The notes under the pieces were generated by a model. That model had not been told where the DNA came from. It did no database searches and saw nothing but the letters and a program-made list of their open reading frames with translations. From assembly GCA_944325075.1 (NCBI GenBank), contig CALUYU010000022.1, positions 1-35,353 on the forward strand: a stretch of 35,353 nt of DNA. Direction: 5' to 3'. The stretch's first letter is position 1, and each line of letters starts with the position of its first letter. This document shows positions 1 to 35,210 of this stretch, one piece after another. A program made the position numbers and the translations under genes. This stretch comes from Candidatus Gastranaerophilales bacterium. Its GTDB lineage: Bacteria; Cyanobacteriota; Vampirovibrionia; Gastranaerophilales; Gastranaerophilaceae.

Positions 1-28
1 GTGTTTTTTGGTTTGCTATTTTTCTTTG

Positions 29-63
29 ACTCTCAAAACGTGGTAAGGAAGCCTTTTAAGAGT
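29..63. repeat. Inverted repeat at the fibre gene stop
   Basis: ACTCTCAAAA (29-38) pairs with TTTTAAGAGT (54-63) with one wobble and a 15-base loop. The hairpin covers the fibre stop codon. No U run follows on either strand, so it is not a convincing terminator. It could help mRNA stability or be chance. Confidence 0.35.
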
Positions 64-919: not shown

Positions 920-928
920 AAATTTCCT

Positions 929-2805: not shown

Positions 2806-3223
2806 AAATCTCTCCAAAACGTTTCAATTCCGACTTTTCGCTGTCCCATACCAGTGCGTATCGTTCAACCGAACCGTCAGGCTGTGTTATCGTAAGAACA
2901 ACTTCAGTAGTCTTATTTCCTCCTGATACAGCTGAGGCATCAACACTGCTTATTAACCCTGAATTTACCATCCAATCCAGTTTCGACGCAATTATTGCAC
3001 CAAGATTTTTTAAATTATCAGGAGTGGCCGGCTTATTGAATTCGGCTTCAACGTCATCATTCTCAATATCAAACGTATCATTATCAAGGACATCGTAAAA
3101 AGCTTTTCCGCCAAAAAGGCTTAAATAAACAGCATTATATAATGTGCAATTTAAAATAAGGTCACCGTCAGAACTTATATCCAGCTCCCCTCCGTCGCCG
3201 TTTTCTATCATTAAAATATCCAA
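2792..3223 (-). CDS. Baseplate protein, Mu gp46 family
   Basis: The protein has 143 residues. The N-terminus is acidic with IENGDGGELDISSDGDLIL, then NAVYLSLFGGKAFYDVL, which fits the Mu gp46 / gpW-gp25-like pattern (xGDlxxd..L.tAVxLSLftd+). It would be a wedge protein next to J. The start is TTG at 3223, seven bases after a full GGAGG; the ATG four codons in is too far (19 bases) from that site. One base separates it from the gp45-like gene upstream. Confidence 0.72.
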   Translation of the reverse strand: MDILMIENGDGGELDISSDGDLILNCTLYNAVYLSLFGGKAFYDVLDNDTFDIENDDVEAEFNKPATPDNLKNLGAIIASKLDWMVNSGLISSVDASAVSGGNKTTEVVLTITQPDGSVERYALVWDSEKSELKRFGEIYGRV

Positions 3224-3703
3224 TTACGCACCTCCGGTCACAATACCGCTTTCCGTTGTGACTGAATTTGAATAAGTGCCGCTTGCACCGTTTTCTGCAA
3301 CAATGACTGCACCCGTAACCGTTCCGGAAACTTTCAGCTCTCCATTATGTTCCCAGGTTCCGGATGTCAAAATTTTACCTGTCGGAACAATTACAACATC
3401 ACCGTTATTTTTTAAATGAATTTCAGCAGCAACCTTTATTCCGCTTGTATCAGTTGAATAAAATCTTTTTTCCCCCGGTTCCGATTTTCTTTCAATATTA
3501 TCCCGAAAAAGAAACAAAACGCCGTCTCTGGGATTACTTCCGACATTAGATGATAAAGCCTTAATCTGTTCCGGCGGGTTATAATCATCACCGCCGCCAT
3601 GGTATTGTTCCATATAAACCGCATCAGAACCGTAAGGAGTTGTCTTAAATTTTCTGATAACTCCAGATATCGTTTTATCTAGTATTTTCGCAATTTTTAG
3701 CAT
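3224..3703 (-). CDS. Baseplate spike/assembly protein V, Mu gp45 family
   Basis: This is a 159-residue spike-like protein. The N-terminal half has the OB-like segment of gpV/gp45 (SNVGSNPRDGVLFLFRDN, then EIHLKNNGDVVI). The C-terminal 50 residues are a Gly/Thr/Val/Ser-rich beta repeat (SGTWEHNGELKVSG, then TVTGAVIVAENG) expected of a trimeric needle. The start is ATG at 3703, nine bases after GGAGAG. A longer reading to 3742 lies inside the upstream gene. No HxH iron-binding motif is seen at the tip, so the needle may end in a separate tip protein or none. Confidence 0.75.
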   Translation of the reverse strand: MLKIAKILDKTISGVIRKFKTTPYGSDAVYMEQYHGGGDDYNPPEQIKALSSNVGSNPRDGVLFLFRDNIERKSEPGEKRFYSTDTSGIKVAAEIHLKNNGDVVIVPTGKILTSGTWEHNGELKVSGTVTGAVIVAENGASGTYSNSVTTESGIVTGGA

Positions 3704-4833
3704 AATGGCAAACTCTCCGGAATAATTCCTGTATAAGCACAAGGAAGTGTTAAAATAATTGAATTCCCCTTATCTCCATCCTGTTCAAATTCTTCTACAA
3801 TCATTTTTGTTTCATCAAAGATATAGCAAGACGGCGATTGAAGATAAACAAAATCGCCCTTCTTGAGGTTAAAGAAGTCATTAACACTTAATCTGACCTT
3901 TATTGCATCCCCTATCGAACGGCACGCATACCAGTTTGCAAAATCACTGATACTGCCGGAATAGGTGTCATCTGCAAATATTCGTTTGGTTATCGGCAAA
4001 TCGTACGGAATTTCCACAACTGCCTGAGCAGGCTCCGGATACTGTGTTTGTGCTACATAATACCTTGCAAGCTCATCAGTTGAAAATTCAGCATTCCAAT
4101 CAGTAACCCCTACAGTTTCACCCTCCAGAAACGACATCTTTGCAGACGTATCCTGCACAGTCCCTACATATAATTTTGTTCCGTCATCATCAACAATAAA
4201 TCCTCTTGAAGAAGCCAGTCTTGTTATGTATTCCCAACAGGTTTCATCCTCTCTTGCTGCATAACTGTTACCGATTTCAGTCTGGGATACATAATCCAAA
4301 TTCGGATTATTTTCAAATTCTACCTGAATACCAAAATAATCACATATTGTTTGTATTATTGATTTTATACTTAAATAAGATGAATTCAGCGGCTCCGGAA
4401 CAACTGTTTCAAGTAAAATGCCGGCTGATGACATTATATATAGACAGGTCTTAATCCCTGCATTTGTCACTTCCGGCCGGATATCAGCAATATACCCGTT
4501 CAAGAATAACCCGTCATTATCATATACAGAAACACTCTGACCTCTTTTAAAAGAAAATTCCTCCGGATTAGAGTCAAAATCCAGAATAACCCCTTTCACA
4601 GCTCCCAGCATATTAATTAAAAGGTAATAATAAAAACGGTGGTAAACAGTACCATCAATATTACAGCGAACACCTTCACCATCAGCGGGCAAATCATCAT
4701 CTGCAGGTACAATAATATACCCGTCAGTATTATTATTAATCTTAGATAAATCGCCTGCTTTATCAGGCACGCCGTAAAGTTTACGCGAGATATTATCATA
4801 GTCAATATTACCCTTGTAGATTTTTTTAAACAT
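3697..4833 (-). CDS. Baseplate hub protein (gpD / Mu gp44-like) with LysM-like N-terminus
   Basis: The protein has 378 residues. Residues about 1-45 (IYKGNIDYDNISRKLYGVPD..DLSKINN..DGYIIVPADD) look like the LysM-type gpX protein that usually is a separate small tail gene. The rest resembles the gpD/gp44 hub (GYIADIRPEV, the long stretch with QTEIGNSYAAREDETCWEYITRLASSRGFIV, and KGDFVYLQSP). It appears to be a fusion of gpX-like and gpD-like parts, between the gpN-like and gp45-like genes. The start is ATG at 4833 and overlaps the upstream stop by eight bases. Confidence 0.75.
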   Translation of the reverse strand: MFKKIYKGNIDYDNISRKLYGVPDKAGDLSKINNNTDGYIIVPADDDLPADGEGVRCNIDGTVYHRFYYYLLINMLGAVKGVILDFDSNPEEFSFKRGQSVSVYDNDGLFLNGYIADIRPEVTNAGIKTCLYIMSSAGILLETVVPEPLNSSYLSIKSIIQTICDYFGIQVEFENNPNLDYVSQTEIGNSYAAREDETCWEYITRLASSRGFIVDDDGTKLYVGTVQDTSAKMSFLEGETVGVTDWNAEFSTDELARYYVAQTQYPEPAQAVVEIPYDLPITKRIFADDTYSGSISDFANWYACRSIGDAIKVRLSVNDFFNLKKGDFVYLQSPSCYIFDETKMIVEEFEQDGDKGNSIILTLPCAYTGIIPESLPLC

Positions 4834-6088
4834 AGATTACAATCTTTCGGCCTTTTTCCAAAAAGAAAAATTCATCTCCCGATAAATTATTTGTACGGTT
4901 TACATAATCAATCGCCGCTTCCGGATCAGATTTAAACATATCCGGATAATTTTCAAACGCCACCATTAAAGGATTGGAATGCTCTTTTAAAAATAATGTC
5001 TTTTCTACTTTTAAGTCATCACTCTTATCAATAATAGAACCTATTGTTTGGTTTACTATTTCTGTTGTATCAACTTCGGTGATTATTGTATCTTCAAGAT
5101 TTTTATTGATAATTTCTTCTATATCCTGAGACTGTACAATATAGTTATCATTTATTTCCTGAATATTTTCTGCAGCAAGAACGGCATCTTTTCTTAACTC
5201 AAAGTCACTGCTGTTAATAACATCACAGCCTGTCATAATTGTTGATTTCAAAAACAAATCATCAGCTGTATATTCAGATTTTGTCACATTTTCTGAAGAT
5301 GACGGCAGTAAACCTGAAATAATATCAGATATTGACGTAATCACATCCGAAACGTTATCATAAGTCAAAAGCCCTTTTTTTAACAGTATTCCAAGCTGTG
5401 TTGACATTACAAGCGGATTATTCAAGATGTTTTGTGACTTTATATCCTGTAAAATCCCGATAAAGTCAGAATTTTGAATATCGTTGAATTTTTCTGCCAG
5501 TTTATCAAGATTAGACCCCCACCTGTCGGCAAAACTTTGTTTATCCTCAATCACCGCAACAGTTTCTGCAAAACTTTCGGATAATGTTTCCTGCATTTGA
5601 TTTATATTCTTTGTTAATGATGTTGTTTTTGTTACTTTGGCCGTCGGATACACAGTGCCGCTGCACTGATGGAACGATATATTTACTTCCGTATGTGAGA
5701 GCTTTTCAACAGTATCCTGCTCAAAATCAATATCAAGAGCCTGGACGATCATTATATTACCGTATGACAGCTGCAGTTTACTTTTACCATGCTCACAGTA
5801 AGCAGCTTCAAAATTATCGGCATCAATGTCATGATTATCGCCAAAGAAGTATAACTTTAATGAAAAATCACGACCGGATACCCCCATGTCCTGAAAAGTA
5901 TCATCAGACATATTAACTGTTTTATATGACGTTTTGTTGTTATTCTTTCCATAACTGCGTGTAGGATTATTTTTAACCTCTCCCTTACGTTTTCTGGAAT
6001 ATTTTATTTTTCCGTCAGTTTGTAAAATAAATTTTTTACCGGACGGGGATGTCCAAATAACCTGTTTTTGTCTGTCTGAATAACTCAT
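4826..6088 (-). CDS. Tail/DNA circularisation protein, Mu gpN (gp43) family
   Basis: The protein has 420 residues. The N-terminus IWTSPSGKKFILQTDGKIKYSRKRKGEV and the middle FSLKLYFFGDNHDIDADNFEAAYCEHGKSKLQLSYGN fit the DNA-circularisation/gpN N-terminal domain, which in Mu-type phages lies between tape measure and hub. The second half is helical and acidic. The C-terminus FFLEKGRKIVIYV is like a LysM-type or gpX contact. It starts at ATG 6088, sharing one base with the tape-measure stop. The name DNA circularisation is historical; a structural tail role is more likely. Confidence 0.72.
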   Translation of the reverse strand: MSYSDRQKQVIWTSPSGKKFILQTDGKIKYSRKRKGEVKNNPTRSYGKNNNKTSYKTVNMSDDTFQDMGVSGRDFSLKLYFFGDNHDIDADNFEAAYCEHGKSKLQLSYGNIMIVQALDIDFEQDTVEKLSHTEVNISFHQCSGTVYPTAKVTKTTSLTKNINQMQETLSESFAETVAVIEDKQSFADRWGSNLDKLAEKFNDIQNSDFIGILQDIKSQNILNNPLVMSTQLGILLKKGLLTYDNVSDVITSISDIISGLLPSSSENVTKSEYTADDLFLKSTIMTGCDVINSSDFELRKDAVLAAENIQEINDNYIVQSQDIEEIINKNLEDTIITEVDTTEIVNQTIGSIIDKSDDLKVEKTLFLKEHSNPLMVAFENYPDMFKSDPEAAIDYVNRTNNLSGDEFFFLEKGRKIVIYV

Positions 6089-7878
6089 TATTGCTTCCGC
6101 TTACCTTTTAATTTAACTTTAAATACCCTGCCGTCAACGGTTTTGGCATTAACAACTTTTGCATCATATCCTTCCGGAGCAATTAGTTCTATTTCCAACA
6201 CTCCGCTATTTTCATTTGACTTATGCGGGCTTTCAATTTCGTAACGTTTATTCAGATACTTTTCAAAATCGATAACATTATCGTTTCTCGGACGCGACAT
6301 CTGTTCAAGAATTCTGACAGTCCTGTTATTGTTATAAACCTTTGTCGCTGCAGGAAGTTGAACAATTTCAGGCCCGCGTTCCCCAACAAGTGCCAGCCCG
6401 CCGGAAAAATAATTCGTTCCGGAAGCAAAGCCCGGAACCTTTTTATCATTTGAGTTTTTCCTCTTTTCCATAACATTTCGGGTAACATTTACAACAGCAC
6501 CGACAGGAGTAAACCTAAATGCGAGTTCCGCAGCCTCTTTAATCTTATTAAAAATAGGTTCAATCTTTTGCCATAAATCCATAATCCAGGATTTTGCCTT
6601 TTGTACAAAATCAAGGGTAGCCGCTTTTACTTTATCCCAATTTAATGCAAGCAATACAAGCCCTGCAACCACTGCACCGATTGCAACTGCCACCCAGGTC
6701 ATCGGATTCATCAATAATGCTGCAGTCTGTGCAGCTATGGCTGCAACACTTGCCCATATTGAAGTTGTTAATGTTCCAAATTTTATAGCAAGCCCTAACA
6801 CAGCCCACGCTAAATTATTAAAGTTTGCTATAATTGCGACTGTCGCAATTCCGCTAATTGCCGCAATAATTTTGTCGGAATTCGATTTAATAAAACCGGC
6901 AAATTGCTGAATTACATTATAAAGCCCCGCAAACATGTGATAACAATTTTTCAGAATATTATAAAAATCTTCAAACGATTTCTGGATAACAGGCATATTA
7001 TCAACAAGTAACTGGTTTGCTTTAGTTAATAATTTTGTATATTCAGGAAGTATCACCATTCCCCAGTTTGTCTGAATTTCTTTCAGCATTTCTGAGTGCA
7101 TACGCATCTGGTTTGCGGCATTGCCGCCTGTTCTTAAAAAATCACCCTGGGCATTTTTGGTTCTATCCATTACATACAAATATCGGAGTTCAACTTTTTC
7201 AGCCTCTTTCATATCTTTTATCTTTTTTCGTAATCCTTTGCTGCGTGCAAATTCTTCAAGGTTTGCTTGCGTCATTACAACACCAAGATTTTTCAAAGAC
7301 TCGGTTTCACCGGTATAAACAGATTTTAAAGCCGTTGTCGCAATATCATTAGAGATATTTTTAAACGATGCCATATCAGCCCCGAGTTGGGTTAAAGACA
7401 TTGCCATTTCAGCTGCACGTTTCTGCGACATCCCCATACCAGTTCCCATATCACCAAACAAAGCCGCACTATCTAATGCGGTCTGCTGGGCAAGCCCCAT
7501 ACTTTTAACTGAGGTTTTTGCCCATTCAGTAACCTGCTTGCTCATTGAACCAAATGCAACATCAATTTTACCGCGTGTTTCTGTCAAATCCGATGCCAGA
7601 TCTATCCAAGCTTTACCTAATGCTGCAATCTGTTGTACAACCTGCCCCGCAACCACAGCCATAATAGCATTTTTAACGGTAAATATTTTATCTGTAACAG
7701 AAGTAATACCGTTGCCTAAACTTTTAAACCCTGAACCAATAAAACGGAAGGCACGGTTAAAAGCACCCTGAATTCGTCCTGCCTGTTGCTGAAAGCTGTT
7801 TCCTTTTTCAATCATTGATTTAAAAGCAGGAGTAACCCCGTCAACAGCCTTGAACTTTGTAAATATAGAAAATGACAT
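6088..7878 (-). CDS. Tail tape measure protein
   Basis: The protein has 596 residues and sets tail length and is ejected during infection. Evidence is the phage tail tape-measure pattern in the first 250 residues (WAKTSVKSMGLAQQTALDSAALFGDMGTGMGMS.. region and DIATTALKSVYTGETESLKNLG), a hydrophobic segment at about 326-413 able to form membrane helices, and the C-terminal motif FASGTNYFSGGLALVGERGPEIVQLPA. It starts five bases after the stop of the frameshifted chaperone product. At about 600 residues the tail should be short for a myovirus. Confidence 0.93.
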   Translation of the reverse strand: MSFSIFTKFKAVDGVTPAFKSMIEKGNSFQQQAGRIQGAFNRAFRFIGSGFKSLGNGITSVTDKIFTVKNAIMAVVAGQVVQQIAALGKAWIDLASDLTETRGKIDVAFGSMSKQVTEWAKTSVKSMGLAQQTALDSAALFGDMGTGMGMSQKRAAEMAMSLTQLGADMASFKNISNDIATTALKSVYTGETESLKNLGVVMTQANLEEFARSKGLRKKIKDMKEAEKVELRYLYVMDRTKNAQGDFLRTGGNAANQMRMHSEMLKEIQTNWGMVILPEYTKLLTKANQLLVDNMPVIQKSFEDFYNILKNCYHMFAGLYNVIQQFAGFIKSNSDKIIAAISGIATVAIIANFNNLAWAVLGLAIKFGTLTTSIWASVAAIAAQTAALLMNPMTWVAVAIGAVVAGLVLLALNWDKVKAATLDFVQKAKSWIMDLWQKIEPIFNKIKEAAELAFRFTPVGAVVNVTRNVMEKRKNSNDKKVPGFASGTNYFSGGLALVGERGPEIVQLPAATKVYNNNRTVRILEQMSRPRNDNVIDFEKYLNKRYEIESPHKSNENSGVLEIELIAPEGYDAKVVNAKTVDGRVFKVKLKGKRKQ

Positions 7879-7880
7879 AA

Positions 7881-8455
7881 TTAGCCTTTCGGAACAGTAT
7901 TTTTCTTTTTCTCGTATTTGTAGGCAAGAGGAGCTTTTTCAAGTACCTCACAAGCCGGCATATTATCAACATTAGTTGATGTATCAAATCTTTCAAGCCA
8001 CAAAAAGTCTGCCATTGCCAATATTTTAGGCAGCCTTATTTCAAGAAAAAATCAAGACACGCCATAGCAATTTCAAGATTTGTTCCATGCATTTCGTTTA
8101 TAATAGCCTCAGGAACATCACAAACATTTGATAACATTTTTACCGAGGCATCAAACCCGCCTTCTTTTAGTTTTTTAGCATCCCGAACCTTAAACTTATT
8201 TTTGTAATACAGTTCGTTGCGTTCAAAATCTCCGGAACGAATAGTTCTTGTTAATTTTTGAACAAGACATTTTTTTTCTTCGTCATAATAAATTAACCCG
8301 GCCATTACACCTTGTATAAGATTGGTCGATAGCTTTATTTCCTCAGCTGTTTTTTCCCTTACTCCAAAATCAATTAAATCAATTTCAAGTTTATCTGCCA
8401 TTTCATTAATATATTTTTCAGCATCCTCTTTAGTCATTTTTTCTTCAAATTTCAT
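7881..8455 (-). CDS. Frameshifted tail assembly chaperone (gpGT/gp41-42 type)
   Basis: This is the long product made by -1 frameshifting on T TTT TTC at 8051-8045. After the shift the ribosome reads CTT GAA ATA AGG and continues for about 54 more codons (ending KKKNTVPKG) to TAA at 7881-7883, two bases before the tape-measure ATG. There is no other gene in 7881-8035. The extension has a plausible sequence (LAMADFLWLERFDTSTNVD). Tail assembly chaperones of many long-tailed phages are made in this two-product way. Confidence 0.8.
8036..8455 (-). CDS. Tail assembly chaperone, short product (Mu gp41-like)
   Basis: This is the 139-residue in-frame product, ending LDFFLK. It is a charged helical protein with no enzyme motif, lying between tube and tape measure where Mu gp41 and lambda gpG lie. 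The family match to the E/41/14-type chaperones is from position and general shape. The start is ATG at 8455, four bases after GGAGAG. The chaperone would coat the tape measure while the tube polymerises. Confidence 0.78.
   Translation of the reverse strand: MKFEEKMTKEDAEKYINEMADKLEIDLIDFGVREKTAEEIKLSTNLIQGVMAGLIYYDEEKKCLVQKLTRTIRSGDFERNELYYKNKFKVRDAKKLKEGGFDASVKMLSNVCDVPEAIINEMHGTNLEIAMACLDFFLK
8045..8051 (-). promoter_or_regulatory. -1 ribosomal frameshift site T TTT TTC
   Basis: Within GAT TTT TTC TTG AAA TAA the heptamer fits X XXY YYZ with the zero-frame codons TTT TTC. The zero-frame stop follows two codons later, and the -1 frame is open for 54 codons. Confidence 0.8.
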
Positions 8456-8469
8456 TGCACTCTCCTTTT

Positions 8470-8501
8470 AAAAAGCTGAAACAGTTAATAACCGTTTCAG
8501 C
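8470..8501 (-). terminator. Hairpin with U5 between tube and chaperone genes
   Basis: GCTGAAAC and GTTTCAGC (8475-8482 and 8494-8501) form a stem around a second small dyad, GTTA-T-TAAC. On the minus strand five T follow. It is a modest intrinsic terminator placed between the highly expressed sheath-tube genes and the low-copy chaperone and tape-measure genes, so it may reduce read-through. Confidence 0.6.
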
Positions 8502-8509
8502 ATATATTT

Positions 8510-8878
8510 TTAACTATGTTTCAATTTCCCTGTGTTTGATACAATATCAAAAGCATCCGTAACATTGTTTTTGGTAGATATGCCCAAAGATTCAACAACA
8601 ATCATTCCTTCACAGGTATAAGATTTATCATCAGTTTCTACTCGAATAGATAAATTTTCCTTTCCAAGGAAAGATTCAAGGACACTAAGTTCTTTTGCAT
8701 CAACCTGACAACCTTCAAGCCGTCCCGGAACTACTTTTTTCACAGCCCTTGTTTCGTTGTTCCCAAATGTAACATATTCCGTTATCTGTTCACCGCCTAC
8801 ATGTACTTTCACCTCACAGTCATTCGGCACCCCAAAGCTATAACCTTCTATTGTAATAGATTTTAAATATCCTGACAT
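8510..8878 (-). CDS. Tail tube protein, Mu gpM family
   Basis: The protein has 122 residues (Mu M has about 118). It begins SGYLKSITIEGYSFGVPNDCEVKVHVGGEQITEYVTF, and has the beta-rich GRLEGCQVDAKELSVLESFLGKENLSIRVET and CEGMIVVESLGIST that fit the gpM tube (the asked-for ...G.V..+...T.eGKA... type). It lies five bases after the sheath stop, the standard sheath-tube pair of contractile tails. Confidence 0.82.
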   Translation of the reverse strand: MSGYLKSITIEGYSFGVPNDCEVKVHVGGEQITEYVTFGNNETRAVKKVVPGRLEGCQVDAKELSVLESFLGKENLSIRVETDDKSYTCEGMIVVESLGISTKNNVTDAFDIVSNTGKLKHS

Positions 8879-8883
8879 ACTTA

Positions 8884-10746
8884 TTAACCTCCGTAATTAA
8901 ATCCAACCATATTGCAAATATCAACAATACGATTTACTCCGGATAAATCAGGGAACGAATTAATGTTTATTCTGTCCGGATTAGTATTGTCAATTTCCCC
9001 GATTGTATAACCAATGGCACTTTCAACATTAGCAAGAATTGCCGCCGTTCCCAGTGCCCTTATAATACTGTTAACTTTATCAACGAAAGCACTTACTTTT
9101 TTAGCCTTCGGATTTGTTGTTACATCATCTTCACCAATAACGATAACCGATTTCCAGTTGTCATCATATTTAAACGGATACATCAAATTGTATGCTATAT
9201 TACCAAGACAGCACACATCTCTGTCATACATATACAGCGTTTTCTTACTGCCAAGAGGATGATAGAATGTACATAAATCTCCTACTTGATACCCACCGTC
9301 AGCTAACGGTTCAAGATTCGGAATTCCTGCTTTCAACAACTTGTCACGCAATTCCCATTTTAACGGTCTTAATTTTCCGTAATCACCAAAAATTTGAATA
9401 TTTATCTGATCATCCCGCCTGCTGTTACCAAACTCAACAAGGGAATCAATATCAACAGTACCTTCCACAAGTTTGTTTTCCGGAAACTCTTTTGCTGTAT
9501 AGCAAGCTACATACTGTGCAATCTTAGTATCAGTACGCCATCCCTGAAAATATTCTCTCATTGCATCAAGAGAATTGTCATCATTAAATTGTGAACATAC
9601 TCTTGTAATACCGAGTTCTTCAGTAATTAATTCAAGATAATCATCAATTTTTACAAGCCCAGCCCCTTCACTTACAACAGCAGCAGAAAAACTAACACCG
9701 TAATCTGCTGCTGTAATCGGCTTGTATTCAGAATTAACAACATCAATTTCAAATTTTGCAGACTCCCCTTTAACTTTTGATTCCAGAGTTAATACAACAG
9801 TCGAACTGCCGTTTGCTGTACCGGAAATATTTAGAGCTGCAAATAAGTCCGTTCCTGTTGACGGAGTTAAAATTTCAATCTTGGAAGCAGCCCCGCTTGT
9901 GTTTGATGTTAATATATAAGCAGAACTTGCAGCTTCAGGGCTTTCTGCTGTAAGTGTCAGTCCTGTTAAATGACTGCTTAATGCTGTTATTACATCTTCA
10001 GCAGTTTCTGCAGAAACAGTTCCTACTGAAGCTTCCTGTTTTTCACCGCCATCAACAGAATATGCTACATAATAATCATCTTCAGTCAAAGTTGTGCAAT
10101 CAACAGCTGCAGATGATTGTATTTTTGCTGATGTCGCAGATGCCTTATCATCAACTACAGCAGTAAAAGGTATCTCCACATATTCATCAAGAGCCGACTT
10201 AATCGCTGTCAGAATATCCTTTACCTCTGCATCTTTTTTAAGCGTAAAAGGTATATTTTCATAATTAAACGCATTAAGTTTTATTCCTTTGGGATCCAAT
10301 GCCGGATTATTATGAGCATTTGTCGCAACTTTCGACGCTACATCAGCCGCAGCTTCAAAAAGCTGTTCTTTATATCTAAAATATAATGTTGAATTTACAG
10401 TTGGTTTACCGGTTACGGACAAATTAACTTTATGCTTTGTTCCGCTTTCAATTTCCGGAACAGGTAAAAAATATGTTTCAACATTAGCACCGCTTCTATC
10501 CTGCGGAAATGCTTTCAGTGCCATTCGATGTAATGGTGAACCGAACCCCATCATTACACCGACATCATCTGCATTCCCGGAACCTGAATAAATCGTATTC
10601 GGTTCTATAGTCTTGCCGGTTTGATAGTTGCCTAAAAACAACAGCCTTTCCGGACGTAAATATGCTCCGGTATTCTGTGCACGCTGATAAAAGGCAACAC
10701 CTGTCGCCGATGCCCGTGCATCGGACGCAATAGATTTTACAGTCAT
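8884..10746 (-). CDS. Contractile tail sheath protein, Mu gpL family
   Basis: The protein has 620 residues. Its C-terminal region (RPLKWELRDKLLKAGI, then DLCTFYHPLG and the NIAYNLMYPFKYDDNWKSVIVIGEDDV segment) and FQGWRTDTKIAQYVACYTAKE fit the L-type sheath. It is about 125 residues longer than Mu L. The extra sequence is at about residues 195-345, rich in Ser, Thr, Ala and Gly, and is probably one or two surface domains. The start is ATG at 10746, seven bases after AGGAGG, one of the strongest ribosome sites in the window, as expected for an abundant protein. Confidence 0.88.
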   Translation of the reverse strand: MTVKSIASDARASATGVAFYQRAQNTGAYLRPERLLFLGNYQTGKTIEPNTIYSGSGNADDVGVMMGFGSPLHRMALKAFPQDRSGANVETYFLPVPEIESGTKHKVNLSVTGKPTVNSTLYFRYKEQLFEAAADVASKVATNAHNNPALDPKGIKLNAFNYENIPFTLKKDAEVKDILTAIKSALDEYVEIPFTAVVDDKASATSAKIQSSAAVDCTTLTEDDYYVAYSVDGGEKQEASVGTVSAETAEDVITALSSHLTGLTLTAESPEAASSAYILTSNTSGAASKIEILTPSTGTDLFAALNISGTANGSSTVVLTLESKVKGESAKFEIDVVNSEYKPITAADYGVSFSAAVVSEGAGLVKIDDYLELITEELGITRVCSQFNDDNSLDAMREYFQGWRTDTKIAQYVACYTAKEFPENKLVEGTVDIDSLVEFGNSRRDDQINIQIFGDYGKLRPLKWELRDKLLKAGIPNLEPLADGGYQVGDLCTFYHPLGSKKTLYMYDRDVCCLGNIAYNLMYPFKYDDNWKSVIVIGEDDVTTNPKAKKVSAFVDKVNSIIRALGTAAILANVESAIGYTIGEIDNTNPDRININSFPDLSGVNRIVDICNMVGFNYGG

Positions 10747-10758
10747 TAATTATCCTCC

Positions 10759-11409
10759 TTATAAATCCGTAATTAAAACCGAAATCAGCTGATCACGGAT
10801 ATGATTCTGTATATATAGTTCTTTTATTTGTGTTCCAGTTAAATATTTTGTTTTTTCATCGAATTCAAGTTCAAAAATCATTTTTTGTGACAATGAACTT
10901 TTAACCATATTTTCTTTTTCCGGATAAAAAGTCCTCTCCACTGATTTTAAAATGGTTGAAGATATTCCGGCTTTAATGCGGATATTCTCAGCGGCTTCAC
11001 TCATCATTATTTGCTTAATTTGAGCAATAAGATAATCCAGCCTTATATCCGCTATTGCATCACCAGACATCTTAACAGAATGTTCATCAAACAAGTCATT
11101 GTCTCCTGACGCAAAAGCTTCTATTACAAGCTGATTTGTAGATTGCAACCTTGACATAGTTTGAGTACCATCATAGTCAGACCTGTCAAAATAAATATAA
11201 ATACAAGCCATTTCATGGATATTCGGACTGCGGAATTCATGATTTTTAACTTCAAAGTTAACATAATTCTTAATCCAACATTCATCCTTACCCATTTTAC
11301 GGGCAATATTAATCTGGTTATCCCGTTCCGAGCTTATAATTTCCGCTATCAAATCAACCGCAAACGTTTGTTTCATCGGCGGAATCAATTCCTCAAAAAT
11401 AGGTTTCAT
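10759..11409 (-). CDS. Tail terminator-like protein (Mu gp37 position)
   Basis: The protein has 216 residues and lies directly before the sheath, where Mu has gp37/gp38 and other myophages have the tail terminator. It has an N-terminal helical part (MKPIFEELIPPMKQTFAVDLIAEIISSERDNQINIARKM), a beta-rich middle with IYIYFDRSDYDGTQTMSRLQSTNQLVIEAFASG, and a helical C-terminus. This arrangement suits a tail-completion protein. I do not recognise a firm family motif. It overlaps the upstream gene by one base (TAATG). Confidence 0.5.
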   Translation of the reverse strand: MKPIFEELIPPMKQTFAVDLIAEIISSERDNQINIARKMGKDECWIKNYVNFEVKNHEFRSPNIHEMACIYIYFDRSDYDGTQTMSRLQSTNQLVIEAFASGDNDLFDEHSVKMSGDAIADIRLDYLIAQIKQIMMSEAAENIRIKAGISSTILKSVERTFYPEKENMVKSSLSQKMIFELEFDEKTKYLTGTQIKELYIQNHIRDQLISVLITDL

Positions 11410-11846
11410 TAAAATTTACCTGTTCTTAAACTTGTTATATCCGGAATATCTTTTGCAATAGTCGGTTTTATAAGATAAATTCCAAGCATTCTGTCTATCG
11501 CAACATGCTCACACTTAAATTTTTTCCACTCTTTAATTGAAGGGAAATATATATCAATAAGCCAATCTTTATCAACAACACCAATTTTTACACTGGTCAT
11601 GTTAATTGTTACTTCTGCTCTGTCCGCAAAAATTCCGAGTCCGGTATCCGTACTTATGTCAATTCCGATAAACGGAGCGAAACACCCTAGCTTATCATCT
11701 TTGTCATAATCCGGATCATTTTCAGATAAAGTTGAACCACGACCCTGAATTTTACCGTCCGGACTGTATAAAATACATTTTGTAGAAAACAGACCATTAT
11801 CAACAATGGTCTGTTTATCAATTTCCAACATTTCAAATCCATTCAT
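11409..11846 (-). CDS. Probable head-tail joining (neck) protein
   Basis: The protein has 145 residues, is acidic and mainly beta, and lies between the capsid gene and the gp37-like gene. In lambda-like heads this slot holds the FII-type or connector protein, and in Mu the gp36-like one. No signature motif is seen, so the function is taken from position only. ATG at 11846 is six bases after the capsid stop; TTTTTATG has no strong ribosome site, so it may be translated by coupling. Confidence 0.45.
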   Translation of the reverse strand: MNGFEMLEIDKQTIVDNGLFSTKCILYSPDGKIQGRGSTLSENDPDYDKDDKLGCFAPFIGIDISTDTGLGIFADRAEVTINMTSVKIGVVDKDWLIDIYFPSIKEWKKFKCEHVAIDRMLGIYLIKPTIAKDIPDITSLRTGKF

Positions 11847-11852
11847 AAAAAC

Positions 11853-12926
11853 CTACAAAAGATTTGAATATGATACATAACCGTCAGGATTTGTTGGAAC
11901 AAACAAAGGTGCAGCTTTTACACCATGTTCAAGTGTCGTTATTCCTGCACTTGCTTTAGGATAACAATATGCGTATTCTTTAGCTTTAATAATCTGAATT
12001 GAATTAAATATATCCTGCATATCAGGCGACATATTCGGACAGGTCACCAATCCACCATAGAACATAGTCAGATCATGGTTTTTAGGCAGCAAGATTGCTC
12101 TGTCATTTGGAATAAAGCGTTGAGTAGTACCTTCACCCGCAAAATTATATCCTTTAGGAATTGTAAACCCGCCTTTAAATCCCCAAATGTAAATTGTAAA
12201 TCCGTCCCCTGCTAAACAACCTGACAAAGAAGCTCCGGGAGATTTTTCGACAGGCATTCCTATTGCAACCCTGTCTATACCATCCAGTCGTTTAGAAAGT
12301 TTTTGAACTTCATCATTTAATAAAATCGGATTTGTGACAGAACCGTTTGAAATAAAATGAAACTCACAATCAGCGACTTTACCATCATCAACTATCAACT
12401 GGCATCCATTCATTAATTCATCCACAATTTTTGCGGACGTATCAGAGTATTTTTTAGCAGCTGCAATATCATGTGTTGATTTTTTATTAAACTTAATCTT
12501 ATCACCGTTATGTAGTGTAAGTTCGCCGTTTAACAAACCGTCTGCCACCTGTTTACTTTTTGAATTCGCCTGAAAATCAGAAAAAATACCCTGGTTTTTA
12601 GAAACCTCTTCAACAGCATCTGCCACCCTTTCACCATAAGGAATTGCTCCGAATGGTCTTTCCAAAAACCACTTGTCAGTCAACGCAGTATAATCATTGT
12701 ATTGAGGGATTTTATATTTAAAACTTTCATATCTGGACAGGTCATGGAAACGGCCTCCCGTACATTGAGGCAAGTCAACTGAATATAATGACTTTACAAC
12801 ACGGCTATCTAACTCTATAGTAGCTTTATTGGTCAAAACTTCTTTACATAAATTGGTAAGAAATTGCGGAGCCGCTTTTCTTCTTTCAAAACCGCCCGCA
12901 AAATATGTATTCAAATCAATCGCCAT
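11853..12926 (-). CDS. Major capsid protein, lambda gpE family
   Basis: The protein has 357 residues (lambda E has 341). It starts MAIDLNTYFAGGFERRKAAPQFL and has the loop with PYGERVADAVEEVSKN, the QVADGLLNGELTLHNGDKIKFNKKS segment, and an MSPDMQDIFNSIQIIKAKEYAYCYPKA stretch near the C-terminus. These match E-type capsids, including the internal DIYIW-like FTIYIWGFKGG. It follows the decoration protein directly, as lambda D-E. Confidence 0.85.
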   Translation of the reverse strand: MAIDLNTYFAGGFERRKAAPQFLTNLCKEVLTNKATIELDSRVVKSLYSVDLPQCTGGRFHDLSRYESFKYKIPQYNDYTALTDKWFLERPFGAIPYGERVADAVEEVSKNQGIFSDFQANSKSKQVADGLLNGELTLHNGDKIKFNKKSTHDIAAAKKYSDTSAKIVDELMNGCQLIVDDGKVADCEFHFISNGSVTNPILLNDEVQKLSKRLDGIDRVAIGMPVEKSPGASLSGCLAGDGFTIYIWGFKGGFTIPKGYNFAGEGTTQRFIPNDRAILLPKNHDLTMFYGGLVTCPNMSPDMQDIFNSIQIIKAKEYAYCYPKASAGITTLEHGVKAAPLFVPTNPDGYVSYSNLL

Positions 12927-13280
12927 TTACTCACCTATTCCTTCCTGAACATTCATTACTAAAATTCCATTGTTCTTTAACGTAGTCTTTATCGCATCGA
13001 CAGTATCACCGCTTTTTGTTAAAATTAAAGCATTTGCATTAACCTGACCGTATGCAATAACTCTGGCATTTTTGACATCTAAACTTGAGTCGGTTGTATT
13101 TTCTACATCAGCTGCAAGAATATAGCATGGGACTTCACTCCCATCCTCAGCACTTGATTGATATGGAACCAGTACATTACCTGTCGTAATTTCACCAAGA
13201 ACTGTACCGGCCAGAACTGTCCCTTTTGTTGCAATTCTCAATGTTGCATCCGTATATACACAATTAATTCCTGTTATCAT
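12927..13280 (-). CDS. Head decoration protein, lambda gpD family
   Basis: The protein has 117 residues. GTVLAGTVLGEITTGN followed by VPYQSSAEDGSEVPCYILAADVE is the decoration-protein pattern (G.vLG.it..g....y..aa.DGs..p..il). It stabilises the expanded capsid at the three-fold positions. It stops directly before the capsid start and starts one base into the end of the protease-scaffold gene, the same order as lambda C-Nu3-D-E. Confidence 0.88.
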   Translation of the reverse strand: MITGINCVYTDATLRIATKGTVLAGTVLGEITTGNVLVPYQSSAEDGSEVPCYILAADVENTTDSSLDVKNARVIAYGQVNANALILTKSGDTVDAIKTTLKNNGILVMNVQEGIGE

Positions 13281-13654
13281 TATTTAACCTCCATTAATCC
13301 GCGGGCCTGTAATGCAGTTTCAATTTCCGCTTTTTTTGCAGCATCTTCTGGCTCTTCATCGCCCGGCTTTGTCGGGTCATCAGTATTAAGAGCTGCAGGA
13401 GATTGTGTCTGCATTGATTGAATAGTATTTGCACAAACCTGTTTATGCGTATAAACAGACATCATATCCGCAAAAGTTTTTCCTTCTTTTATTGCAGAAG
13501 TTGCTTCATCTTTTGCAATGTCAAAAAATCTCAGGTGATCTTCAACCCTTTTATGTTCGGCATCGCAACCCGCTTTCAAACCTTCGTTGTATCCTTCATT
13601 TTTTACCTGAGCATAAATTTCAGGATACTTTGCTTTCAATTCGTTTAAATCCAT
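13280..13654 (-). CDS. Nested in-frame scaffold protein (Nu3-like)
   Basis: There is an internal ATG at 13654 (MDLNELKAKYPEIYAQVKNEG), five bases after a perfect AGGAGG. It would give a separate 124-residue protein made of the scaffold part only. In lambda the scaffold Nu3 is made the same way inside C. The sequence is acidic and helical, with charged repeats and a PGDEEPEDAAKKAEIETAL tail. The strong internal ribosome site is the main evidence. Confidence 0.75.
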   Translation of the reverse strand: MDLNELKAKYPEIYAQVKNEGYNEGLKAGCDAEHKRVEDHLRFFDIAKDEATSAIKEGKTFADMMSVYTHKQVCANTIQSMQTQSPAALNTDDPTKPGDEEPEDAAKKAEIETALQARGLMEVK

Positions 13655-16593: not shown

Positions 16594-18510
16594 TCAGGCC
16601 GCCTTTAAAGTTTTAAATACTTCGCCCGAATTTGAAGCCTGCAAATTCAGGTAATTTCTAGATATTTCACTAATAACCAATTCGGCCGCACATAAGTTAT
16701 AAACATTCAAGTCAAATGCTTCATTTCGTCCATGGGCAACCCAATTTATACTAATTAATCCACTGTCTGAAACTTTTTTAACTCGATGTTCTGTCGTCAG
16801 CTGACGTAAATACTCATCAGAATATCCGTTTGCAATAGTTGACCATCCGTCCGGATAATCTTCATCTGAGGCACGCCAATCTTGATTGAACCAGCCGGCT
16901 AACTGATTTTTGTAAGAGTCAACATAGATTTCAACTAATTTAACAGAATAGTTATCAAGAGAACGGATTTTATATTTATCTCCAGTTTTGGATGTTGACC
17001 CGATTCCCTTTAATGGGAATATTATACCTTCACCGTATTGCTCGCAAAAACGATAAATCAAATCAGTCTTTTCGCCATCACCAGAGTCAATTAACATATA
17101 AAAAATTTGTTTACCAGCCCAAATTTTATCTTTTATGTCCAATAGCTCCTGCCAGCATGGATCCATAGGATTTGAAGTATCTCCAGGAATAACAATATGA
17201 TTAATTCCCCAATTTCGGAACCTGTCACCCCAAGCCTTAACTTCAACTTCAAGTCTGTTATCCTGAACGTCGCAAGCAGCAGTTAAAAATAATGCATCAT
17301 CAGGAATTTCATCATTATTAAATTTTCCGTCCCTTAATTTTGTAATTGAGACAGAATTGACACCTGCTGTCGTATCTTCAAACGGTAATCCTAAATCATG
17401 ATTGTAAAATATTCGTAATTTTTCACGATTATTTCCTGCATTAATAAATCTTTTTACAATTTCCCACCATTCACGGGCCGGAGAATACAACGAGCTAATT
17501 TGATATGATTGAAAACATGGAACCTGACTTACAGCTGTCGGCTTCCAGTAACCCTTTTTAAGCATTGAAGGTTTATAATGCTCATTAATTAATTCTCCAC
17601 AATGTTTACATTTATATCTAACAGAGTCGTAACAACCGCATTTGCATTCTTTTGAATTAAAAATCAATCCGTATGGTTTGAAAATAACACCGTCAGTTTC
17701 AACTCCTTTTTCTTCAGGATATAAACCACCATTTTTAGAATAAAATATTAGTTCCTGATATTCACCACAAAACGGACAAGGAACATAATACTTTCTTTGG
17801 TCGCCCTTTAGATAATATTGATAAATATGACTGCTATGCTTTAATAAGGGTGTTGAAATATAGCCTATTCTTTTATCTCTGCCAAAAGAGTCTGTACGTG
17901 AAACTGCAAGTTCAACAGGATCACCTTCATCCCCAAGTTTGTCCGGGTATGCATCAAGTTCATCAAGTAAAAGAATTTTTATAGGAAAACTTCTTAAATC
18001 ATCTGCACTTTTAGCCCCTACAATTCTAAGAAAACCGCCTACAAATTCTATTAATGACGTGGTATCGCCTTGCCGTCTGCTGTTTTTATTCCCGGTATCA
18101 GCAACAATTCTGTCTCTTAGACCGGAGTCATCAATCAACTGATCAATTTTCACCTTCTTGTAATCTCGCAATAACGATTTACTACCGGACACAAGCATTA
18201 TACTTGAGGGATTTTCTGCTATATGATAACCGATTGCATTATCAAATATTGATGTAGTAAAACCTAATTGCACCCCCTTCATAACAGCTACTTCCCGAAC
18301 TCTGCTTGTTCTCGAGAAACAATCCGCAATTTCGCGGGTATAAGGCATATAATCAAAATTAAAATTCCCCGGCTTTTTCGTTACTTTACTACTCAAAAAT
18401 CTGTTAGCTTCAGCCCATTCTGAAACGGTTGGCAAAATATCTTTTTTTGAAAAACTTAAGGCTAAATCAATAATTCTATCAATTTGAACTTCACGTTTAT
18501 CAACTATCAT
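16594..18510 (-). CDS. Terminase large subunit, lambda gpA family
   Basis: The protein has 638 residues and is the packaging ATPase and nuclease. The ATP site is MKGVQLGFTTS (about 77-87), Walker B is ILLLDELDAY (about 179-188), and there is a zinc-binding block CPFCGEYQ (245-252) to CKCGCYDSVRYKCKHCGE. The nuclease part has LTAACDVQDNRLEVEVKAWG (about 410-430) and NEAFDLNVYNLCAAELV at the end. Length and order match GpA-type enzymes, which usually act at cos sites. It overlaps the small subunit by 11 bases. Confidence 0.94.
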   Translation of the reverse strand: MIVDKREVQIDRIIDLALSFSKKDILPTVSEWAEANRFLSSKVTKKPGNFNFDYMPYTREIADCFSRTSRVREVAVMKGVQLGFTTSIFDNAIGYHIAENPSSIMLVSGSKSLLRDYKKVKIDQLIDDSGLRDRIVADTGNKNSRRQGDTTSLIEFVGGFLRIVGAKSADDLRSFPIKILLLDELDAYPDKLGDEGDPVELAVSRTDSFGRDKRIGYISTPLLKHSSHIYQYYLKGDQRKYYVPCPFCGEYQELIFYSKNGGLYPEEKGVETDGVIFKPYGLIFNSKECKCGCYDSVRYKCKHCGELINEHYKPSMLKKGYWKPTAVSQVPCFQSYQISSLYSPAREWWEIVKRFINAGNNREKLRIFYNHDLGLPFEDTTAGVNSVSITKLRDGKFNNDEIPDDALFLTAACDVQDNRLEVEVKAWGDRFRNWGINHIVIPGDTSNPMDPCWQELLDIKDKIWAGKQIFYMLIDSGDGEKTDLIYRFCEQYGEGIIFPLKGIGSTSKTGDKYKIRSLDNYSVKLVEIYVDSYKNQLAGWFNQDWRASDEDYPDGWSTIANGYSDEYLRQLTTEHRVKKVSDSGLISINWVAHGRNEAFDLNVYNLCAAELVISEISRNYLNLQASNSGEVFKTLKAA

Positions 18511-27769: not shown

Positions 27770-28855
27770 TTATGCCATCGGCATTACAAGATATCTGTGT
27801 TCCATATCAGGAAACACAACAGCACTGCGGGCTCCGTTCAAACAAAATTTCACCAGATTTCCGCTGATTGAATTTAATACAGTCTGGATATAGTAACGAT
27901 TAAGAATAAAAGATATGTCATCGCCGTTTTTATCTTCAGCAACCAAAGTATCATTACTTTTGTACATACAGGCTTCAACTGTAACCAGACTACCTTTTAA
28001 AGAAAACATTACTTTACATTTATCTTCTTTTTCTTCAACTACGCTGATACGGTTAAGGACTTTTTTCAGCTCGTCTTTATTAACGGAAAATTCTGTCAAA
28101 AAAGCTTTCGGGATAATCTGGTCAACTTTTGGAAATGTCCCCTCAAGAACTCTGGTATAGAATTTTGAATTGCAAAAATCAAACATGCAATAACTACCAC
28201 TAACAATTAAATCAACATCTCCACTAGCGGGGATAAGTTGATTTAATGCAGCTACAGATATTGCAGGAATAACAGCCGATAAGTTAATATCAGGAGTTTC
28301 TGTAGTCTTTATCACATAAGCCAGACGATTGCCATCAGTTGCAATAAACTTTACAATATTTCCGCTAACCTCAATATTTATACCGCTTATAATCCCGTCT
28401 TCTGCATCTGAAGTAAAACCTTTTGTTTTGATAAAACCTTCCCGCAGCGATGCAGCTGTTATTGACACAGTCAGATCACCTTCTCTGACTTTATTATCAT
28501 CAAAATATGTTTCCGGATATTCACTCAGGTTAGTTTTCGGAAGCTTGCATTTCGTTTTATCCTTTTTTATCCAAACAACATTTTCTTTTTCTTCAATAAA
28601 GGCATCCCCGCTCATTGTTTGTAAAATCGCGGTTAGTTTTTCAATCTCTATTAAACATTTACCAGGCTCCATTATCTGTGCAGGCACTCTGATGACAGCT
28701 CCGTTGATGAGATTTGATACCGTTATCTTAATTTCGTCCTTAAGGGTCTCAAAAATACCGTTGCTTAAAACAGGACAAACTTTATCCGGTTTTGCTATAT
28801 GCTTAACTTTATTCAACGCTTCTAAAATTTCAGGTATATTTACTTTTATATGCAT
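27770..28855 (-). CDS. dnaN: DNA polymerase III sliding clamp (beta subunit)
   Basis: The protein has 361 residues, the usual clamp length. It shows three similar domains: IPEILEALNKVKHIAKPDKVCPVLSNG; AASLREGFIKTKGFTSDAEDGIISGINIEV with FIATDGNRLAYV; and LEGTFPKVDQIIPKAF with the C-terminal YLVMPMA. The clamp would keep the host replicase on phage DNA. No phage DNA polymerase or loader is in the window, so it likely works with host proteins. GAGG-type ribosome sites and short spacing tie it to a 50-residue gene upstream. Confidence 0.93.
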   Translation of the reverse strand: MHIKVNIPEILEALNKVKHIAKPDKVCPVLSNGIFETLKDEIKITVSNLINGAVIRVPAQIMEPGKCLIEIEKLTAILQTMSGDAFIEEKENVVWIKKDKTKCKLPKTNLSEYPETYFDDNKVREGDLTVSITAASLREGFIKTKGFTSDAEDGIISGINIEVSGNIVKFIATDGNRLAYVIKTTETPDINLSAVIPAISVAALNQLIPASGDVDLIVSGSYCMFDFCNSKFYTRVLEGTFPKVDQIIPKAFLTEFSVNKDELKKVLNRISVVEEKEDKCKVMFSLKGSLVTVEACMYKSNDTLVAEDKNGDDISFILNRYYIQTVLNSISGNLVKFCLNGARSAVVFPDMEHRYLVMPMA

Positions 28856-32861: not shown

Positions 32862-33323
32862 ATGAAAAAAGTTTATGTCCTAGTATTAATTTTATTTATA
32901 AGCAGTTTTACGATTACCGGATGCGGATCAAAAAGTAACAAAGTACCGGTTGAGACCAAAAAAGAAATTTCTGTAAATCCGGTTAATACTGCATCACCTC
33001 AACTAATAGAAAATATGAAGTTTGTACTAAATAAAAATTGGGAAATTGTTGATACAAATAAAATTTATGTAACTAAATCAAAGGATTTTGAAAATGTTTA
33101 TTTTATTGGAACATTAGTAAAAAATGGTTCACAAATATATAATTGTATATGGGCTTCAAACAGCGACAAAATGGATGGTGATACGATGTCCGCGAATGAT
33201 TTTGCTATACAGGCTTCTTCGATAGCAGATGGAAGGAAATCACAAGCCGGAATAAGCGAACACGATGACGGGTATTCAAGAATAAATCAAAAACTTTTAT
33301 CCGACTGGACAAATATAAAATAA
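32862..33323 (+). CDS. Lipoprotein, probable lysogenic-conversion gene
   Basis: The protein has 153 residues from ATG 32862, after AAGGAG with seven bases. MKKVYVLVLILFISSFTITGC is a lipoprotein signal peptide with the lipobox ITGC. The mature part has VPVETKKEISVNPV and a single beta/alpha domain, no enzyme motif. It sits between the repressor and recombinase, a common place for genes expressed in the lysogen. A superinfection-exclusion or surface role is possible but not shown. Confidence 0.72.
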   Translation: MKKVYVLVLILFISSFTITGCGSKSNKVPVETKKEISVNPVNTASPQLIENMKFVLNKNWEIVDTNKIYVTKSKDFENVYFIGTLVKNGSQIYNCIWASNSDKMDGDTMSANDFAIQASSIADGRKSQAGISEHDDGYSRINQKLLSDWTNIK

Positions 33324-33338
33324 CTAGACTTATAATTT

Positions 33339-34907
33339 ATGAACACCAAACCAATACCTGCAGCTGCATACGGTAGATATTCAAGTCACTTACAAAATGA
33401 ACAGTCAATAGAAGGACAATTTACCGATATATATGCAAAAGCAAAAAGAGAAAATTATATTATCGTAAAAGAATATGTTGACCAGGCAATGACAGGTCGA
33501 AATGACAACAGACCCGCATTCCAACAAATGATTGAGGACAGTAAGAAAGGGATTTTTAAAGCTGTATTTGTATGGTCAATAGATCGTTTTGCAAGAAATC
33601 GCTACCTTGCCGCAATCTATAAACACGAACTACGCAAAAACGGTGTTAAACTGCTTTATGCTGCAGAAAATATTCCTGACGGCCCGGAAGGCATTATGCT
33701 TGAAGGTATTTTAGAAAGTGCAGCAGAATATTTTAGCGAATATAATGCACAAAAATCAATGCGGGGTAAAAGAGAAACAGCACTAAAGGGGAAATATAAC
33801 GGTGGTGGCATTCTGTGGGGATATAAAATAGACAAAGAAAATCATTATATAATAGATAAAAAAGCAGCTCCTATAATTAGAAATATATTTGAACAATATG
33901 CATCAGGTGTTTCAAGTAATAAAATTGCGGCAAACCTCAATAATAGCGGAATTAAAACAGTGCTTGAAACATCTTGGGATAACAGAAAAATCCTTCAGGT
34001 TTTACGCCATAAAGCTTACGGGGGATTTTACTGTTGGAGCGACTATTGTTTAGAAAACAAGATTCCGGCAATCGTAGATAAAAAAACATTTGAAACGGTA
34101 CAGGACAAGATGAGAAAGAACAAAGAAAAAGCAGCAACATTTAAGGCTAAAGAATATTATATTCTTTCAGGAAAATTATATTGCGGGAAATGTGATAGTC
34201 GAATGGTTGGTAATAGGGCCCGAATATCACGTAAAACTAACGAAAAAACATGCTACTATAGCTGCAGCGGGAAAAAATTATATAAAAACTGTGATTTAAA
34301 ATCTTTTAGGAAGGAATTTTTAGAAGAATTAGTTATTAATGAAATAAAAAACTTTCTGGCCAACGATTCTATTCTCGAACAAATAGCCGGAAAAATTAAT
34401 AGTTTATTAGAACACGAAACGTCAACTTTTAAATTATCTGATGCATTAAAGGCCCAGCTGAATGAAACTGAGAAATCCTTAAAAAATCTTTTATTTGCAA
34501 TAGAAAAGGGAATTATATCCGAAACCACACAAAACCGACTTTCAGAACTTGAAATCCAAAAGAAGGATTTAATCTTAAAAATACGTCAAGAAGAATTAAA
34601 CGAACAAAGGCCAATTATTTCAAAAGAACAAATTCTATTTTTCCTAGAACGATTTAAAAATGCCGACACAAATGATATAAATACAAAAGAAATACTCATT
34701 GAGACTTTTATACACAGGGTATATATTGATGAGAATTATTTAAGAATAATATTTAATATATCAGATGAAAATAGTGAAAGGAAAATTGATTTAAAAACCA
34801 TACAACAAGCAGAAAAAGAGAAAAATAAATTCAACGCTTCTAGCGTCTTGGATACTTCACATAAGTGTTACCACACCGATTATGCCAAGAGTTATAAGAA
34901 CTTCTGA
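33339..34907 (+). CDS. Large serine recombinase (phage integrase)
   Basis: The protein has 522 residues and carries out integration and excision. The resolvase domain is at 1-150: YGRYSSHLQNEQSIEGQ with catalytic Ser15 in the YxRxS motif, and WSIDRFARNR with Arg83 and Arg86. The recombinase domain is in about 160-270 (GWGYKIDKENHYIIDKKAAPIIRNIFEQYASGVSSNKIA is of this type). The zinc ribbon is LYCGKCDSRMVG with YSCSGKKLYKNC, followed by a coiled coil (about 375-450). The last about 20 codons overlap the broken prepilin gene on the opposite strand. The ribosome site is weak. Confidence 0.94.
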   Translation: MNTKPIPAAAYGRYSSHLQNEQSIEGQFTDIYAKAKRENYIIVKEYVDQAMTGRNDNRPAFQQMIEDSKKGIFKAVFVWSIDRFARNRYLAAIYKHELRKNGVKLLYAAENIPDGPEGIMLEGILESAAEYFSEYNAQKSMRGKRETALKGKYNGGGILWGYKIDKENHYIIDKKAAPIIRNIFEQYASGVSSNKIAANLNNSGIKTVLETSWDNRKILQVLRHKAYGGFYCWSDYCLENKIPAIVDKKTFETVQDKMRKNKEKAATFKAKEYYILSGKLYCGKCDSRMVGNRARISRKTNEKTCYYSCSGKKLYKNCDLKSFRKEFLEELVINEIKNFLANDSILEQIAGKINSLLEHETSTFKLSDALKAQLNETEKSLKNLLFAIEKGIISETTQNRLSELEIQKKDLILKIRQEELNEQRPIISKEQILFFLERFKNADTNDINTKEILIETFIHRVYIDENYLRIIFNISDENSERKIDLKTIQQAEKEKNKFNASSVLDTSHKCYHTDYAKSYKNF

Positions 34908-35047
34908 TAATGTAAATGCTGCCTTTTTCTTAGTGGGTAAACCCTCCGGCATGTTACTATCTAAATCATTTAAAACCTTAGCAGGAGAGCTTAAATACGT
35001 TGTCCCCCTCCCTTGGTTGAAAGCCTTGCTCTGTCTGCGTTTTGCAT
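34857..35047 (-). pseudogene. 5' fragment of host prepilin gene, cut by the prophage
   Basis: The sequence at 34952-34857 reads MPEGLPTKKKAAFTLSEVLI, TLGIIGVVTLM, stop. KKKAAFTLSEVLITLGIIGVV is the class III (type IV pilin/pseudopilin) N-terminal signal with the cleavage site before Phe and Glu5. After GIIGVV pilins continue AAxTIP, but here the reading leaves the family at TLM-stop, marking the phage junction. The best start (ATG 35047 after AGGAGAG) is out of frame and ends after 18 codons; one extra G in the GGGGG at 35004-35008 would join it to the pilin frame. Confidence 0.8.
34865..34877. other. Predicted right attachment site (attR/attL core)
   Basis: GTGTTACCACACC is a short imperfect dyad exactly where the pilin reading leaves its family. 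Large serine recombinases cross over at a central dinucleotide in such a dyad. The partner site lies left of this window, so the core is an inference. Confidence 0.5.
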
Positions 35048-35210
35048 GTATTACTCTCCTGTTATTATCTTTACTTTTTTATTATAAAATGTTTTTTTTA
35101 ATATTTCAAGCAATCCGTTTTTTATTACATTGAAAATATTTACTCATTAAGTTTTTATAATTTTTTAAATAAAACAGCAAAAAATAAAATTTAGGAGTTT
35201 TCTAAACAGT
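34908..35210. other. Host junction region without an intact gene
   Basis: About 300 bases contain the pilin 5' fragment and its promoter on the minus strand, and the upstream region of the host gene at 35211. TATAAT at 35156-35161 may be a -10 for that gene. A plus-strand reading at 34882-35133 is not credible. Confidence 0.6.
35081..35109 (-). promoter_or_regulatory. Promoter of the interrupted prepilin gene
   Basis: On the minus strand TTGAAA (35109-35104) and TATAAT (35086-35081) are exactly 17 bases apart, followed by AGGAGAG and ATG 35047. It is the best sigma70-like promoter in the window, and its transcript would run antisense into the recombinase gene. Confidence 0.75.

Follow-up and report, generated by a model that had tools for sequence, protein, structure and literature searches.

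A temperate phage of gut Cyanobacteriota interrupts a prepilin gene at a signal conserved across a large host gene family

The A118-type phages of Listeria carry a serine integrase and interrupt comK, a gene that can be restored by excision. Other phages enter genes for prepilins: Lactococcus phage TP901-1 integrates in comGC (PMC6882331, PMC7693887), and its reported attB of 13 bp, tcaatcaaggtaa (PMC7693887), corresponds, on the opposite strand, to codons T-L-I-E of the FTLIE prepilin signal. Pneumococcal PPH100 likewise inserts in comGC, at an attB, ACCAACATCTCCACCAA (PMC8637289), that reads LVEML on the gene strand, and comparable insertions in comYC are found in several species, at a site that is orthologous but not perfectly conserved (PMC4774983). 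Insertion at a prepilin signal is therefore already known, from Firmicutes phages. Multi-targeting large serine recombinases, in which one integrase cluster is found in more than one target gene, have been defined by a threshold of more than three gene clusters; DUF4368 occurs in 63% of the multi-targeting clade, and some of the targets are loose and AT-rich (PMC10083194).

The stretch of DNA analysed here (the window) is a whole contig of 35,353 bases, C22, from a genome of 2.26 Mb in 107 contigs (G000), and holds most of one prophage, the right ~35 kb at positions 1-34871. A DNA search of the same genome with the window's left end found the remaining left ~5.4 kb, with the lysis genes and attL, on contig C84 (L146:926-6377). 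Read from right to left, C84 carries tail-fibre genes, small genes, an amidase endolysin gene (phrog_435) and an uncharacterised gene, followed by the 3' part of a pilin gene and then a host gene. The order of the two contigs is backed by a phage from another genus (G110:C7), which matches window positions 4-13383 at 95% identity and C84 1604-4317 at 92%, the order being unchanged. The overlap between C84 and the window is only a stretch, 84% similar, that surrounds a poly-C run, and the join was therefore not read through in the assembly; assuming that the two abut, the prophage is ~40.3 kb long.

Between attL and attR lies the gene set of a temperate myovirus (repressor, integrase, terminase, portal, capsid, sheath, baseplate and endolysin), the capsid match being weak and the endolysin located on C84. 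Window genes include the tail sheath (8884-10746, minus strand; phrog_165), a gpA-type terminase large subunit assigned by profile matches (16594-18510, minus strand) and an S24-type phage repressor (32185-32847, plus strand; PF00717, PF01381), together with a D12 methylase, a lambda-type portal, a ClpP-like protease and baseplate genes. The prophage is thus a temperate phage with a contractile tail; its host is placed by kinship in the Gastranaerophilales family of gut Cyanobacteriota. Scans of IMG/VR with the integrase, the terminase and the attP arm returned no close relative, and a scan of viral contigs for the pilin signal returned one intact pilin only. Between repressor and integrase, an open reading frame for a small lipoprotein (32862-33323, plus strand) occupies a position at which superinfection-exclusion lipoproteins occur in other temperate phages. 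The phage also carries a homologue of the DNA polymerase III beta clamp with all three domains (27770-28855). Poly-C/G tracts of 11-13 bases lie in phage tail-fibre genes (window 66-76; L146, on C84, 4889-4900 and 6296-6308; L147 13308-13318) and fall at the motif FLDGGGG in both of those checked, one of which reads through; the window's own tail-fibre gene stops just past its tract, and such fibres are candidates for phase variation.

The large serine integrase (33339-34907, plus strand; phrog_95) has resolvase N-terminal, recombinase and zinc-ribbon domains above their cut-offs (PF00239, PF07508, PF13408), a Ser15 that aligns with Ser12 of TP901-1, and no Pfam match to DUF4368. Its reading frame crosses a pilin signal antisense and terminates inside it: positions 34916-34869 of the minus strand read FTLSEVLITLGIIGVV, followed by TLM and a stop, and homology to pilin genes of the same genome breaks off at 34870, in keeping with an earlier observation that the signal gives way to non-pilin sequence at the end of the recombinase gene. 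The last ~12 integrase codons (34872-34907) come from host DNA that lies antisense to the pilin signal, and the C-terminus is therefore recoded by antisense pilin DNA at each insertion: after KCY the protein continues HTDYAKSYKNF in the window and YTYYSQCYQYLSK onward in a second insertion (L058, described below), and in the circular phage form it would read HTNINNQDIFYNC onward.

On the minus strand, the 5' fragment of the split prepilin gene (34869-34952; MPEGLPTKKKAAFTLSEVLITLGIIGVV) runs from its only in-frame ATG, at 34952-34950 (MPEGLPTKKKAAFTLSE), which is without a clear ribosome site. Upstream, as read from the sequence, lies a leader region (34953-35047, minus strand) with an interrupted G tract, GGGAGGGGG, at 35012-35004. 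An AGGAG at 35060-35056 and an ATG at 35047-35045 (both minus strand) open an 18-residue frame, MQNADRARLSTKGGGQRI followed by a stop, which is not the pilin frame. Further upstream, a promoter-like site, TTGAAA-17-TATAAT (35109-35081, minus strand), is a consensus match only, five such sites being found against 2.5 expected in shuffles. The intact promoter and ribosome site described previously are thus present as a promoter-like site and an AGGAG-ATG pair, but the ATG of that pair lies out of frame with the pilin.

A common core, GGTGTGGT, occupies 34870-34877 (minus strand) in attR and L146:926-933 in attL; on the gene strand attR reads CTTGGCATAATC-GGTGTGGT-AACACTTATGTGAAG, and attL, on C84, reads GTTGTTTATATT-GGTGTGGT-TGCAGCAATGACC. 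Joining the two host halves gives one unbroken prepilin frame (KKKAAFTLSEVLITLGIIGVVAAMTLPTVLNDIQDKQFK onward), and the joined protein scores 19.7 bits against TIGR02532 (NCBIfam; cut-off 16.3), a model that the 3' remnant by itself does not match. The junction of pilin and phage is not a chance resemblance, because attL and the 3' part of the pilin are found on C84, and because the FTLAEVLIT signal pattern matches 143 times in this genome and not once in a reversed control. The central claim of the preliminary description, a prophage inside a prepilin gene at its conserved signal, is therefore borne out by a shared core and a single restored frame; the 3' part of the pilin, which it had proposed seeking left of the prophage, lies beside the left phage end.

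The phage halves of the two sites, which together make attP, carry an inverted repeat, GTCTTGG...CCAAGAC, flanking the core; a 7-bp run that near the centre arises in 1.2% of shuffles (P about 0.012). The crossover is placed on the GT at 34871-34870, within bounds set by L058 and its prophage-free relatives. The base preceding this GT follows the host, being GGTGTA-GT in L058 and the empty loci as against GGTGTG-GT in the window, and the crossover dinucleotide is therefore most likely GT. Two other candidate matches were set aside: contig C59, with the best other match to the attP right arm in the same genome, just upstream of a proton-pumping pyrophosphatase gene, was rejected as attL and attributed to chance, as was an AT-rich match to the left end of C84 in the metagenome-assembled genome (MAG) that holds L058. 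When the genus was searched for a prophage-free ortholog of the pilin interrupted in the window, only 43% relatives came up.

L058, a contig of 3,330 bases, carries an integrase 98% identical to the window's, inserted in another pilin gene but at the same codon. It tracks the window through the phage up to the crossover; on its host side lies the pilin sequence MIRHAFTLAEVLITLGIIGVV beside a helix-turn-helix gene. Four prophage-free syntenic loci (L194, L196, L197 and L200) have the same helix-turn-helix gene followed by an intact pilin, so that for this second insertion the uninterrupted pilin expected in prophage-free relatives is found, and L058 diverges from all four exactly at the GT of GGTGTA-GT. 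L058 was deposited in an alphaproteobacterial MAG. Misbinning is the most likely explanation, the DNA belonging to the window's bacterial family, because that MAG has no other pilin signal and the L058 flank finds matches in many genomes of this family; with the flank syntenic with loci there, an alphaproteobacterial host was rejected. A further locus, L195 (G085), has the L058 helix-turn-helix gene, nearly identical in its 3' half, with no pilin beside it, and the pilin slot next to this gene is, as far as these loci indicate, variable among genomes.

A third copy of the integrase, 95% identical, is found on L059, a contig deposited as Candidatus Gastranaerophilales that terminates at the base equivalent to window 34871, on the crossover dinucleotide itself. 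An assembler would be expected to stop in this way where the sequence has more than one continuation. An artefact of assembly or binning, fusing a phage end to a pilin repeat, must be weighed against these contigs, the more so as the window's genome is fragmented at pilin leaders and L058 is misbinned; but the phage boundary is identical in two independent assemblies, and both junctions of the window prophage fit one core and one frame, so that this explanation is largely refuted and extremely unlikely.

Integrase copies 95-98% identical thus occur in three hosts (window, L058 and L059), and two distinct insertion sites, in two pilin genes of two hosts, are seen directly. For serine integrases of 34-42% identity from this bacterial family, flanking sequence of ~1.5 kb contains no pilin signal, and the choice of site is therefore particular to the 95-98% group. 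The related phage from another genus (G110; 92-95% identical) terminates at sequence resembling a tRNA 3' end (L147 19200-20000); close phages have thus exchanged integration modules.

Candidate sites for such an integrase are abundant. A pattern for the mature part of the protein gave 152 matches in the window's genome against four in the control, and prepilin genes number ~145 (loci L002-L008, L081-L130, L172-L193 and L207-L246), in agreement with an earlier suggestion that several attB sites could exist. Among 54 intact signal sites of this genome that were read completely, the GT core is kept at 52, and conservation is 94% at first, 99.8% at second and 66% at third codon positions; constraint on the protein thus preserves the DNA required by the integrase. 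The left half-sites used in the window and in L058 differ at five of 22 bp, all of them third codon positions, and 49 of the 54 sampled sites are as close as the L058 site, or closer, to the used left half-site.

The explanation proposed is that the bacterial attachment site would be the DNA for prepilin G-I-I-G-V-V-A-A, with crossover at the GT with which the second V codon opens. The first two positions of each codon are near fixed in this stretch and the sites used vary at wobble bases, so that any of the host's ~145 prepilin genes could in principle act as attB. Insertion cuts the pilin gene, leaving leader and signal on one side and the mature domain on the other, and excision, for which large serine integrases need a directionality factor, would restore the frame. 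With ~145 copies of the signal in the host, and a near-identical integrase found at that codon in a different pilin gene of another host, what the virus recognises seems to be the signature of a gene family and not a single address. We infer that this integrase performed the insertion, that several sites within one genome are used and that excision takes place. Counted against the explanation are that only two insertion sites are seen directly, each in a different host, that the window's genome has a single copy, that the host of L058 is deduced from synteny and that the join between C84 and the window was not read through; nevertheless, the explanation as a whole, with attB in the DNA for the best-conserved segment of the prepilin, is very probable.

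It may be instead that the integrase accepts strictly one pilin gene, or a few, whose DNA chances to fit, the other ~140 signals going unused and the family-wide target being only apparent. The attB sites of large serine recombinases are often specific, the window's genome holds one copy of the prophage only, and no more than two used sites are known. Yet those two sites lie in different genes whose half-sites differ at wobble bases alone, most sampled pilins are as close to the window's site as that of L058, and the point at which the L059 contig stops hints that more than one sequence continues from there, which together make strict specificity possible but unlikely.

What insertion would cost the host depends on the state of its pilin genes. 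The usual layout is a ribosome site, an ATG, about ten codons, a tract of G9-G14 and a long leader. Such a tract lies upstream in 68 of 103 sampled pilin genes of this genome, and in 55 of the 72 with at least 700 bases available upstream; a start codon was found for 57; in two of these (G12) the frame continues into the pilin, and in 55 it does not. In an earlier 215-kb sample of these loci, a strict pattern placed a pilin signal downstream of 31 of the 35 long G tracts, and three of the other four were at loci whose pilin the strict pattern misses, or running near a pilin. With tract lengths taken from one assembly, in which errors are possible, these counts suggest a very large phase-variable poly-G pilin repertoire. 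Within the literature searched, no paper pairs Gastranaerophilales with phase variation. The long pilin leaders (L081-L110, L174-L193) are themselves mosaics of common modules (CHPELVSGS, KVGWAFSPTMKLCWGRNPN and AFTLAEVFSPYYLSPRR) and contain partial copies of the signal, with a module inserted inside FTLAEVLITL in L176, and many contigs stop 60-600 bases upstream of a pilin signal.

If the tract lengths are right, the phage would have entered one member of a huge and mostly silent repertoire, where loss of a gene would be cheap. The earlier proposal that excision could restore a pilus gene stands in part: the frame is restored on joining, but the pilin is out of frame with the best start codon, and "excision restores a working pilus gene" is a weaker claim than "excision restores the frame". 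That same frame and the interruption of its G tract, with no excised form seen, would also suit a fixed and inactive remnant in a dead pilin gene that never excises. This is improbable, however, as the phage genes are intact frames, the integrase is near-identical in three hosts and the core is identical at both attachment sites.

A more ambitious reading is that the integrase evolved to read a protein-family signature through the wobble, such that, whatever the genus within this bacterial family, each gene of a very large and phase-variable pilin family would be an attB; entering one silent pilin copy would cost the phage almost nothing, and its poly-G tail-fibre genes would track the switching pili of the host. 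Taken whole, that reading is doubtful. The locus nonetheless offers a natural and testable case of integrase specificity following codon constraint, which bears on how serine integrases choose and shift their targets, and it ties the insertion of a phage to a phase-variable pilin repertoire that looks to be among the largest seen in a single genome.

Set beside known systems, the window phage resembles TP901-1, which also has a large serine integrase, a prepilin signal as its target and a gene split by insertion. The two integrases share 27% identity, however, and cross over at different codons, TP901-1 at T-L-I-E and the window integrase ~ten codons downstream at G-V-V; the target of TP901-1 is one gene, comGC, whereas that of the window's host is a family of ~145. 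PPH100 and the comYC prophages likewise place a serine integrase at a prepilin signal, but their target is a competence pilin whose loss stops transformation, while the window phage sits in one of many pilins, most of them seemingly off. The A118 phages, to which the preliminary description compared this prophage, share a serine integrase and an interrupted gene that excision could restore, but comK is a single-copy gene that does not encode a pilin; the parallel is less apt than those of TP901-1 and PPH100, whose serine integrases use the comGC signal. The multi-targeting clade mostly carries DUF4368, which the window integrase lacks, its motif being strict and set by a protein family. New here are the distant phylum, the distantly related integrase, the other crossover codon and the large family of target genes.
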